The notes beneath the pieces were generated by a model. The model was given only the letters and a program-made list of their open reading frames with translations. It was not told the DNA's origin and did no database searches. The translations under genes were made by a program, and so were the position numbers. A stretch of DNA of 36,896 nucleotides, from NCBI GenBank assembly GCA_007695175.1, contig REEH01000203.1, forward strand, positions 1-36,896. Direction: 5' to 3'. The number at the start of each line of letters is the position of its first letter. Position 1 is the stretch's first letter. Positions 33,687 to 36,896 of the stretch are shown here, in pieces. The DNA comes from Spirochaetaceae bacterium. Its GTDB lineage: Bacteria; Spirochaetota; Spirochaetia; DSM-27196; Alkalispirochaetaceae.

Positions 33687-33935
33687 ATGCCGGAGATCTC
33701 CCGCTTTTTTGGCATCGTGATAGCAATGTATTACAATGAACACAATCCTCCACACTTTCACGTCCGGTATAACGAGTATGAGGCACAGTTTGATCTGCTC
33801 GAAGGCGCGTTTTTTCGAGGGTTTCTTCCCTCAAAGCAATCACGGCTGGTACTTGCCTGGTACGAAATTCATAAGGACGAGCTGTTATCGATGTGGAACA
33901 CAAAGGAGTTTCACATGGTAAAACCCTTGGAGTAG
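33687..33935 (+). CDS. DUF4160 family protein
   Basis: An 82-residue protein with the DUF4160 signature 'FGIVIAMYYNEHNPPHFHVRY' and 'EAQFDLLEG', ending in the family-typical acidic/tryptophan helix 'LAWYEIHKDELLSMWN'. GAGGAGG (33668-33674) precedes the ATG by 12 nt. DUF4160 genes are very often followed by DUF2442 genes, as here, a toxin/antitoxin-like pair arrangement of unproven function. Confidence 0.85.
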   Translation: MPEISRFFGIVIAMYYNEHNPPHFHVRYNEYEAQFDLLEGAFFRGFLPSKQSRLVLAWYEIHKDELLSMWNTKEFHMVKPLE

Positions 33936-33946
33936 GAGGGATACGG

Positions 33947-34240
33947 ATGATCAGACCCAGATTATTCCAGGTTATGCCCGCGGACGATTTTCGTGTCTTT
34001 CTTTACTATGATAACGGTGAGGTGCGCGTGTACGATTGTCGATGGATCCTGGATTCGACAGGTGTCTTTGAGAAGATCAAGGATCCTGGGCGCTTTCGCG
34101 ATCTTTGCACGATCATGAACGGAACACTCGCGTGGGATACGAGCGGCAAACGTGATCCATACGATTGCATCGACATCTGCCCCGACACCGTTTACCAGGA
34201 CAGTTTGAGGACTATTGATCCCTTGCGCAGCTCCGCTTGA
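33947..34240 (+). CDS. DUF2442 family protein
   Basis: A 97-residue protein: 'VMPADDFRVFLYYDNGEVRVYDCRWIL' and 'FRDLCTIMNGTLAWD' match the DUF2442 pattern of a short beta-rich domain ending in an aspartate-tryptophan turn. Start 33947 lies 11 nt after the DUF4160 stop with a GGAGGG site; a longer in-frame start would overlap the upstream gene. The pair forms a small two-gene unit, with lower GC than its neighbours, which hints at transfer. Confidence 0.8.
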   Translation: MIRPRLFQVMPADDFRVFLYYDNGEVRVYDCRWILDSTGVFEKIKDPGRFRDLCTIMNGTLAWDTSGKRDPYDCIDICPDTVYQDSLRTIDPLRSSA

Positions 34241-34287
34241 GGCAAGGTGCATCAGAAACGGCTCGGTGACGGTCCGCGGACAGCCCG

Positions 34288-34316
34288 TTGACGCCCCGTA
34301 CTTGCACAGGTACTAT
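34288..34316 (+). promoter_or_regulatory. Promoter of the fluoride riboswitch/antiporter transcript
   Basis: TTGACG (34288-34293), a 17-bp spacer and TACTAT (34311-34316). The predicted start (about 34323) lies 4 nt before the riboswitch P1 stem. A 10-bp palindrome GTCCGCGGAC (34272-34281) sits just upstream of the -35 box. Confidence 0.75.
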
Positions 34317-34326
34317 CGATGCATCC

Positions 34327-34375
34327 CGGCGATGGGGCTCGCCGTATAACCGCCGTTCCGGCTGACGGTCCCTGC
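34327..34375 (+). promoter_or_regulatory. Fluoride (crcB-type) riboswitch
   Basis: P1 is CGGCG (34327-34331) with CGCCG (34340-34344) around the 8-nt loop ATGGGGCT, which keeps the A-U-G that binds the metal-fluoride cluster. The joining segment contains TAACC. P2 is GCCG (34352-34355) with CGGC (34359-34362), loop TTC. TGACGGTCCCTGC follows, where the family has TGATG. The loop bases GGGGC (34334-34338) can form the pseudoknot with GTCCC (34368-34372). Compared with the Thermotoga petrophila aptamer, two conserved-region bases differ by transition (U41 to C, A49 to G), while the A40 and U48 linchpin positions are kept. It lies 33 nt before the antiporter start, and Na+/H+ antiporter and UspA genes are known members of fluoride regulons. 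Confidence 0.85.
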
Positions 34376-34407
34376 ATACTCGTTTTTCGTTTATGGAGGG
34401 CCGGATC

Positions 34408-36030
34408 ATGATACAGGGTATTCTCCTTATTCTCGTTGCAGGGTTTCTGGCGGGGGAGATCGCAGGACGGCTGCGACTGCCCAAGCTGATCGGGATGCTC
34501 CTGGCGGGTATCGTGATCGGGCCGGATCTGCTGGACGTGATGCCCGCGGCGATGACGGAGCTCTCCGCCGAGATCCGGCGGCTGGCGCTCCTGGTGGTGC
34601 TGCTCAAGGCGGGGCTGGGGCTGGACCGGGAGAAGATCCTGGCGGAGGGCTCCGTGGCGATCCGCCTCGGCTTCATGCCCGCCGTAATCGAGGCGGCCGT
34701 GGTGGCGGTCGCTTCCCGGTACATCATGGGCTGGGACTGGTACACGGCGTGGCTCCTGGGTTGGGTGATCTGTGCTGCCTCCCCGGCGGTGATCGTGCCG
34801 ATGATGCTGCGTCTCAAGTCCGAGGGGTGGGGTGTGGACAAGGGTATTCCGGACCTCATCCTGGCGGGCGGTACCGCCAGCGACGGAGTTGCCGTGACGA
34901 TGTTCGGGATCTTTCTCGTCTGGGTTGTGGACGGGGCCGCCGGAGCGGGTGCCGGCGGAGCCGGTGCCGGTGGTGCGGGAATCGCTCTGCGGCTCCTGGA
35001 TATTCCTCTCCAGATCGGGCTGGGCCTGGTGGCGGGCTTCCTGGCGGGCCGGGCCGCTGTTTTTCTCCTCTCCCGGCTGCGCTTGGCGGAAAGCATCATC
35101 CACGATCTGATAGTCGCGCTTGCCCTGGGGCTGGCGCTTATCACCTTTGACACGTATCTGCCCTACTCATCCTTTCTGGCGGTGATGGTGATGGGCTTCG
35201 TTATCCTCGAGTCGGATGTGGTGCTGGCGCGGCGTCTGCGCGCGGAGATCGGCAAGGTCTGGATCGTGGGAGAAATCTTTCTCTTTGTCCTGATCGGTGC
35301 GGCGGTACGCATCGATATTCTCGCCGATGCGGGACTGCGAGGCCTCGCGATTATCGGAATAGGCCTCCTGGTTGGGCGCTGGGCCGGTATCTTCGCCTCT
35401 ACCGCCTTCTCCCGTATCACCTGGGGGGAGCGGGTGTTCATGGTGGTGGGCGATATGGCCAAAGCCACGGTGCAGGCGGCGATCGGGGGAATACCCCTGG
35501 CGATGGGCGTGGCCGGGGGAGAGTACATCCTGGCGATCGCGGTGCTGGCGATTCTGATTACCGCGCCTCTGGGTGCGTTCGGGACCGCTTTCCTGGCGCC
35601 GCGGATGCTGCAGCGAGGCACCGTCGATCCGACGCGAATCATCGTCCACGAGAAGCACCGTTTTCTCGTGGCCTGGGACGGCTCGCCCGGAGCCGGGGCT
35701 GCCCTGGAGCGCGCCGCCCGTACCGCGCGTCAGCTGGACGCGGATATCGTGCTCCTGCACGTACCGCATCGGGATGATGCGGAACTGACGCGGGAGCAGC
35801 TGATCGACGTGCTGGGTCCCGCCCGGGATATCGCGGTTGATATCGTCCAGGGCCGGGGCAACCCGGCGGAGCTGATCATAGAGACGGCGGAATCCCGTGG
35901 GGTGGATTACATATACATGGGGAAATGGACCACCAGCCGGGGGGAGAACGTACTCCTGGGCGATGTGGTGCAGCACGTGATCGGGATCACGGAGATCCCC
36001 GTGATCGTCGTGGAGCCTCCCGCGTCCTGA
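34408..36030 (+). CDS. Monovalent cation/proton antiporter (CPA2 type) fused to a C-terminal universal stress protein domain
   Basis: A 540-residue protein. Residues 1-400 hold about 12 hydrophobic segments in the Na+/H+ exchanger fold: 'GEIAGRLRLPKLIGMLLAGIVIGPDLL' near the start, 'CAASPAVIVPMML' and 'DMAKATVQAAIGGIPLAMG' further on. Residues ~411-538 form a UspA domain: 'FLVAWDGSPGAGAALERA', 'DIVLLHVPH', 'DYIYMGKWTTSRGENVLLGDVVQHVIG' and 'IPVIVVEPP', with the ATP-binding loop largely recognisable. The start at 34408 is set by GGAGGG (34395-34400); ATG 34393 has no such site. A Gly/Ala run (about 175-191) lies in a loop between helices. Control is by the fluoride riboswitch in the leader, so the transporter probably serves fluoride or pH homeostasis. 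Confidence 0.88.
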   Translation: MIQGILLILVAGFLAGEIAGRLRLPKLIGMLLAGIVIGPDLLDVMPAAMTELSAEIRRLALLVVLLKAGLGLDREKILAEGSVAIRLGFMPAVIEAAVVAVASRYIMGWDWYTAWLLGWVICAASPAVIVPMMLRLKSEGWGVDKGIPDLILAGGTASDGVAVTMFGIFLVWVVDGAAGAGAGGAGAGGAGIALRLLDIPLQIGLGLVAGFLAGRAAVFLLSRLRLAESIIHDLIVALALGLALITFDTYLPYSSFLAVMVMGFVILESDVVLARRLRAEIGKVWIVGEIFLFVLIGAAVRIDILADAGLRGLAIIGIGLLVGRWAGIFASTAFSRITWGERVFMVVGDMAKATVQAAIGGIPLAMGVAGGEYILAIAVLAILITAPLGAFGTAFLAPRMLQRGTVDPTRIIVHEKHRFLVAWDGSPGAGAALERAARTARQLDADIVLLHVPHRDDAELTREQLIDVLGPARDIAVDIVQGRGNPAELIIETAESRGVDYIYMGKWTTSRGENVLLGDVVQHVIGITEIPVIVVEPPAS

Positions 36031-36047
36031 TCTATACCGTATCCATA

Positions 36048-36896
36048 TCAGTGGGGAAACTCGACGCGAAACGTCGTGCCCCGGCCGTCCACGATATCGA
36101 AGGTGCCACCAATCTGCTCCACAAGCATGCGCACCAGCGTCATCCCCAGGGACTGCCGCGGATTGTCGGAAATCCCGCTCCCGGAGTCGGCAACCTCCAG
36201 CACGTGTACGTTCTGGTCCGTTGTCATGCTTACACGGATGGTCCCGGATCTGTTCGCGTTAAATGCGTGTTCGTAGGCGTTGTTCACCAGTTCATTGACG
36301 ATCATGCCGCAGGGAATTGCCCGATCGATGTTGAGTAGAACCGGCTCACCCGAAACCTCCAGAGTGATGTCCTCCCGGCGTATCGATCCCCGAATGTGCC
36401 CGACCAGGTCCTGCAGGTAGAGATCAAAGGGAATCACGGAAAGATCCTCGGTCTGGTAGAGCTGTTCATGGACGAGTGCCATCGAGAGCACCCGATCCCG
36501 ACTCCGATCGAAGAGACGGGAATCGCGCGGGTCCGCCACGTCCGCGGACTGCAGGTTCAGGAGGCTCGCGATAACCTGCAGGTTGTTCTTGACCCGGTGG
36601 TGGAGCTCCCGTATCAACACGGTCTTTTCCTGGACGCTCCGCTGCAGGCTCGCCTGCTGCTGGTCGATGCGGTCGATAAAGGTGTTGAACCGATCCACCA
36701 GTTTCCTCACTTCCCGGGGTGCCCTCGGGTAAAGATCCGCCGTTTCAGCGCGGAGGCCCGTCTCCGCCGCTTCCGCCAGGCGGACGATCGGGCCGGAAAC
36801 GGTGCGCGACATGCGGAGAGCCAGTGCGATAACGGCAGCAACGAGCACCAGGACGAGCACGCTTGTACCGAGACCGAGAAGCAGGATGGGGCGGCG
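36048..36896 (-). CDS. Sensor histidine kinase, HisKA_2 type (N-terminus outside window)
   Basis: The frame is open to the right edge; the GTG at 36860 is an internal Val, so the N-terminal sensor part is missing. Visible: a transmembrane segment at the edge, a HAMP linker ('[15 protein letters not shown]') and a coiled region. The HisKA_2 phospho-acceptor region is '[23 protein letters not shown]', and the ATPase domain has '[16 protein letters not shown]', '[10 protein letters not shown]' and '[16 protein letters not shown]'. HisKA_2 kinases often signal through orphan or stress-response regulators. It converges on the antiporter gene with an 17-nt gap and no visible terminator. Confidence 0.88.

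Follow-up and report, generated by a model that had tools for sequence, protein, structure and literature searches.

The locus described here raises the question of what a fluoride-sensing RNA does in front of a gene that encodes neither of the standard fluoride exporters. The window, by which we mean the whole 36,896-nucleotide stretch of a Spirochaetaceae contig that was analysed, had been read from its sequence alone as carrying a fluoride riboswitch before a fusion of a CPA2 antiporter with a Usp domain. A covariance search proposed in that reading returned a significant match: in an Rfam scan of the whole window, RF01734 was the single match above threshold; its 43.2 bits (E=6.9e-9) exceed the gathering score of 34, and it spans model positions 1-64. 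The source genome (3.72 Mb, 97%-complete) contains one copy of RF01734, and it stands in front of the antiporter-Usp gene. P1 and the five-pair pseudoknot GGGGC/GUCCC, which joins the P1 loop to the 3' tail and marks members of RF01734, are both present as drawn earlier (Table 1). Two other loci with the fused gene, L005 and L007, carry GGAGC/GCUCC instead, that is, different yet matching pairs. The promoter that had been read as placing the transcript start 4 nt ahead of P1 was recovered as well; it is the only promoter-like site on either strand of 34150-34500, where shuffled sequences lead one to expect 0.2. Overall, the fluoride-sensing switch before the antiporter-Usp gene is genuine, and we infer from its sequence that the leader responds to fluoride.

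The sequence-only reading had also stressed two departures from the reference aptamer, U41C and A49G. Both are there, but neither is notable. Among the 41 distinct aptamers that we collected, position 49 is G in 21, so that G is as common as A, and U41C occurs in six, five of which precede a Usp-fused antiporter and one (L012) crcB. A notable functional role for the two changes was rejected, and we regard them as tolerated minor variants. It would be very surprising if the aptamer were a relic, decayed or without function. The aptamers of L003/L097 and L006 do score slightly under the gathering threshold; against this, the window aptamer gives a 43-bit full-length match with an intact pseudoknot and an exactly placed promoter, and it is conserved before orthologues that are 60-77% identical.

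Table 1. Features of the antiporter-Usp locus, in window coordinates.
Feature	Position	Strand	Remark
DUF2442 gene	33893-34240	+	just upstream of the riboswitch promoter
Sigma-70-type promoter, TTGACG-17-TACTAT	34288-34316	+	predicted +1 near 34323, 4 nt before P1
Fluoride riboswitch aptamer (RF01734)	34319-34381	+	covariance-model match above gathering score
P1	34327/8-34344	+	present; P3 also present
Pseudoknot 5' strand GGGGC, in P1 loop	34334-34338	+	sequence, RF01734 alignment
Pseudoknot 3' strand GUCCC	34368-34372	+	alternative partner is the Shine-Dalgarno region
Shine-Dalgarno sequence GGAGGG	34395-34400	+	sequestered in predicted ligand-free fold
Antiporter-Usp fusion gene, 540 aa	34408-36030	+	ATG 34408, stop 36028-36030; Pfam, translation
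Histidine-kinase gene (HisKA_2 + HATPase)	36048-36860	-	convergent with antiporter gene, near window end

Because the 3' strand of the pseudoknot also pairs with the Shine-Dalgarno sequence, translational ON control of the window gene is likely according to the folding model. When the leader was folded without the pseudoknot, a hairpin at 34366-34403 was predicted (-18.9 kcal/mol, z -3.35; one equally stable fold in 200 shuffles), and the mean pairing probability of the GUCCC strand to the Shine-Dalgarno region was 0.80. At low fluoride, GUCCC would pair with the Shine-Dalgarno sequence and translation would be off; with fluoride-Mg2+ bound, GUCCC would be locked in the aptamer pseudoknot, the ribosome-binding site free and the gene on. 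We found no U-rich terminator in 34150-34500, and a terminator-type expression platform was rejected on that ground. The alternative pairing between pseudoknot strand and Shine-Dalgarno sequence is clear in L005 and L007 too, but it was not seen in L003 or L004, which have longer leaders; Shine-Dalgarno sequestration was therefore rejected as a conserved mechanism and is claimed for the window only. Since the pairing is missing from these two loci and blocking the pseudoknot bases raised the predicted accessibility of the Shine-Dalgarno sequence only from 0.20 to 0.47, we infer the translational mode rather than state it as a result.

With the DUF2442 gene upstream and the convergent histidine-kinase gene downstream, the antiporter-Usp gene looks like a one-gene unit. 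Its product consists of a Na_H_Exchanger domain (PF00999; residues ~4-403, E=9e-27, 94.4 bits against 26.2) followed by a C-terminal Usp domain (PF00582; residues 417-535, E=4e-17, 63.6 bits). It is itself neither Fluc/CrcB (PF02537) nor, judging from motifs, CLC-F. The closest solved structure is SLC9B2/NHA2 (E 3e-38), the next antiporter following at 2e-5, and because SLC9B2/NHA2 is the best solved relative, sequence comparison assigns the protein to the NHA/SLC9B2-like CPA2s. The TM3 Glu (E95) and the Arg at motif position 8 (R324) align with Glu215 and Arg432 of NHA2 (human numbering). The Asp-Asp pair of TM5, found in the unfused members in which TM5 is present, is replaced by Ser-Asp in the window protein (Ser158-Asp159) and in every Usp-fused relative. 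NHA2, in which Asp277/278 and Arg431 are conserved, works electroneutrally (PMC8850199), and electroneutral exchange is expected of CPA2s without an acidic residue at motif position 6 (PMC6181914). As Ser158 replaces the first Asp of the CPA2 pair while Asp159, Arg324 and Glu95 are kept, the product would be an NHA/SLC9B2-type cation/proton antiporter, predicted to be electroneutral. The protein is nearest to NHA2 and predicted to work like it, yet it is a divergent branch and not a standard member. The Usp domain is probably cytoplasmic and regulatory. Its alignment reads G-KW-T-9x-G-D in place of the ATP-binding motif G-2x-G-9x-G(S/T); the second Gly and the final Ser/Thr are missing, and the glycine motif is degenerate. 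An AlphaFold model built from six sequences was unusable, with a pLDDT of 46 in the membrane domain.

A survey suggested in the sequence-only reading showed that the fusion gene is repeatedly preceded by RF01734 in related genomes. Besides Alkalispirochaeta alkalica, MAGs under the titles Spirochaetaceae, Clostridia and Planctomycetota have fused relatives, and we take most of these to be soda-lake organisms. In the soda brines of Lake Magadi, fluoride builds up until NaF precipitates (PMC8991015). RF01734 lies upstream of the fused gene in L004, L005 and L007. In L003 the gene is preceded by a weak match of 32.9 bits, and in L006 by one of 32.0 bits that lies about 470 nt away, with short ORFs only between riboswitch and antiporter. 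RF01734 is also upstream in the order relatives L096-L100 and L104, some of which are the same genomes as L003-L007; no riboswitch was detected at L101 and L102, two deep members of the fused clade. L008 was left unscored, its aptamer lacking the 5' half beside a palindromic contig end. A candidate for an unfused Ser-Asp form, L076, was rejected, as it combines a frameshift with a contig end and its Usp domain continues in another frame. A search of viral contigs gave no relatives, and viral carriage was likewise rejected.

Counting any match at E<=1e-20 as a relative, we found the wider family in 43 of 247 Spirochaetota genomes, with RF01734 at most 310 nt upstream in 22 of these 43 and a weak match in four more. 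In a second sample of 249 genomes, from the phylum to which the Clostridia-titled MAG belongs, 21 had a relative, and RF01734 scored above threshold at 17 of the 20 fetched loci (besides L006). Searching plasmids by protein alone gave 12 records, and all seven loci fetched had RF01734 upstream (Picosynechococcus, Leptolyngbya, Synechococcus NIES-970, Peptoclostridium, Ilyobacter, Acetoanaerobium and Cetobacterium). Three cyanobacterial plasmid proteins are full-length, and both of the two checked in Pfam contain Usp. Two of the plasmid loci showed further features: in Peptoclostridium the fluoride riboswitch is separated from the antiporter by a CBS-domain gene (L070:1474-1887), and a c-di-AMP riboswitch (L074:4678-4841, 60.5 bits) lies just downstream of a cyanobacterial antiporter-Usp gene. 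Thus an NHA-like family is linked to the fluoride riboswitch across Spirochaetota, the Clostridia-titled phylum, Cyanobacteria and Fusobacteria, which is a new observation.

Equally new is that the Usp-fused form is one clade, marked by the change of the TM5 Asp-Asp to Ser-Asp and by changes in TM4. In a tree of 63 membrane-domain sequences, which comes with a warning of long branches, the 13 Usp-fused proteins lie beyond a single branch (100/99); riboswitch linkage is scattered over the whole tree. In TM4, all fused members have Ala or Glu before SPA in place of the Val of unfused members, to which the unfused L093, with Ser, is the single exception. The fused members also share a one-residue insertion just ahead of the conserved Arg.

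The pairing of riboswitch and antiporter itself is of a known kind. Genes for K+ and Cl- transport were already on the list of Weinberg 2010 (PMC2864571), and a 2024 review places Na+/H+ antiporters next after fluoride exporters among the genes most commonly associated with the riboswitch, attributing them to pH homeostasis (PMC11139923). The earlier view that the target is unusual in kind therefore finds no support. Other targets appeared among the Spirochaetota loci. An unexpected one is a gene of ~490 aa directly behind the riboswitch in L011, L017, L019, L021 and L025; in L011 it encodes a dynamin-like GTPase (PF00350, E 9e-33), and the products in L019, L021 and L025 look similar in their N-terminal part. 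In L014, L020, L024, L030 and L035, mostly spirochaetes of family f31, the riboswitch is followed by a second CPA2 antiporter of a different kind; it matches PF00999 in L014 and is unmatched by the window protein at 1e-20. In L033 the riboswitch precedes an MFS transporter (PF07690).

A third new observation concerns the standard fluoride channel: the family and CrcB/Fluc never co-occur in the sampled genomes of the two phylum samples. CrcB (PF02537) is absent from the window's genome and from all six genomes that supplied the other loci with the fused gene (L003-L008). In Spirochaetota, 43 genomes have the family, 89 have CrcB and none of the 247 has both (15.5 expected, P 4e-10), and 7.6 co-occurrences are still expected when genus g38 is removed (P 3.6e-5). 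In the second sample the figures are 21, 107 and none of 249 (9.0 expected, P 4e-6), which gives, with both samples pooled, CrcB in 0 of 64 family-bearing genomes where 24.5 were expected; these counts come from related species and are not independent, the exclusion is partly confounded with phylogeny, and MAGs may miss genes. Counted by genus, Spirochaetota show two shared against eight expected (P 0.002); counted by family, 12 have the antiporter, 31 have CrcB and three are shared against 7.2 expected (P 0.007, assuming 52 families from the printed labels). Even in the three shared families and the two shared genera (g8 and g59), antiporter and CrcB are found in different genomes. For CLC-F there is no comparable exclusion, though genuine overlaps are scarce: CLC-F-like motifs occur in only two of the 64 genomes, G257 and G321, out of six candidate overlaps, and no riboswitch was detected at the antiporter of G257. 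The apparent overlaps G026, G092 and G222 in Spirochaetota and G250 in the second sample were rejected for lack of CLC-F motifs. The single CLC of the window's genome is of the GKEGP type without CLC-F motifs, and on this basis CLC-F was rejected as its missing exporter. Because the relatives are found only in genomes without CrcB, the pattern suggests that the window-type protein does the job of the standard fluoride channel. In this respect the non-co-occurrence lends weight to the earlier suggestion that the gene encodes an alternative fluoride defence protein, and the sequence-only reading as a whole is partly supported.

How might an antiporter do this job? On balance we lean towards a single-gene fluoride-defence unit, in which a fluoride-induced NHA-type cation/proton antiporter protects cells where Fluc is absent. 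On the usual weak-acid argument, the cytoplasmic fluoride level of a cell that has no exporter would follow delta-pH. The antiporter would shield Fluc-less cells by altering the ion and pH gradients that set fluoride accumulation: if induced by fluoride and lowering delta-pH, it would lessen accumulation and could replace an exporter. An acid-extruding antiporter would raise delta-pH and trap more fluoride, so that pH homeostasis fits the exclusion only with reverse flux. Behind this antiporter reading we rank direct export, and behind that an accessory role with coincidental exclusion. In the former, the riboswitch-linked NHA-like family would be a fluoride exporter (e.g. H+- or Na+-coupled) and thus add a third solution to Fluc/CrcB and CLC-F; the Usp-fused form with Ser-Asp would then be a modified branch of it. 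The absence of CrcB from the pooled genomes and from those of the other fused loci, together with the scarcity of CLC-F-like motifs, speaks for export, as does the window's genome, which has no CrcB and no CLC-F and yet keeps its sole fluoride riboswitch in front of the antiporter gene. We nevertheless consider it doubtful, since the fold is that of cation/proton antiporters, the ion-binding Asp, E95 and R324 are kept and shared with NHA2, which exchanges Na+(Li+) for H+, we know of no anion-transporting member of this fold, and lineage history can also produce exclusion.

That history is central to the accessory explanation, by which the antiporter merely repairs Na+/K+ or pH balance after HF entry. 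This is the reading given by the 2024 review (PMC11139923), and it gains from the fact that the Spirochaetota families with antiporter and with CrcB are largely separate lineages. The exclusion is harder to explain in this way, because an auxiliary gene would be expected in many genomes that have an exporter, the genes are kept in different genomes even within shared families and genera, and the pattern repeats in the second sample; we therefore judge the accessory explanation unlikely. More broadly, and as a tentative proposal, the NHA/SLC9B-like antiporters linked to the fluoride riboswitch, including the Usp-fused Ser-Asp branch, might take the place of Fluc/CrcB in several phyla, as a third bacterial system for fluoride export or its equivalent.

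The frequent link between riboswitch and antiporter is currently put down to general pH homeostasis. Since CrcB is strictly absent from the sampled genomes that carry this NHA-like family, the link becomes a sharp claim, namely that the family stands in for the fluoride channel through HF-trapping gradients or fluoride movement. If true, the annotation of fluoride tolerance would change in spirochaetes, clostridia, fusobacteria and some cyanobacteria, and the SLC9B family would gain a bacterial model.

Compared with known systems, the window aptamer resembles RF01734 in its full-length match above the curated score, its P1, P3 and pseudoknot and its conserved loop bases; it differs in U41C, shared with close relatives, and in an expression platform predicted to work by Shine-Dalgarno sequestration and not by a terminator. 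For the riboswitch-associated Na+/H+ antiporters of Baker 2012, as described in the review (PMC11139923), the aptamer is likewise followed directly by a gene of the Na_H_Exchanger family; measured against that description, the window adds the Usp fusion, the TM5 Ser-Asp and the non-co-occurrence with CrcB. With SLC9B2/NHA2 the protein has in common the SPAV motif, the TM3 Glu, the Arg and a KATVQAAIG segment. Where the window protein has Ser158-Asp159, however, NHA2 carries two Asp in TM5; NHA2 also lacks the Usp domain, and its 14-TM form includes an additional helix at the N terminus. Finally, the Fluc/CrcB and CLC-F exporters are controlled by the same riboswitch class, but their folds are unrelated to that of the window protein.
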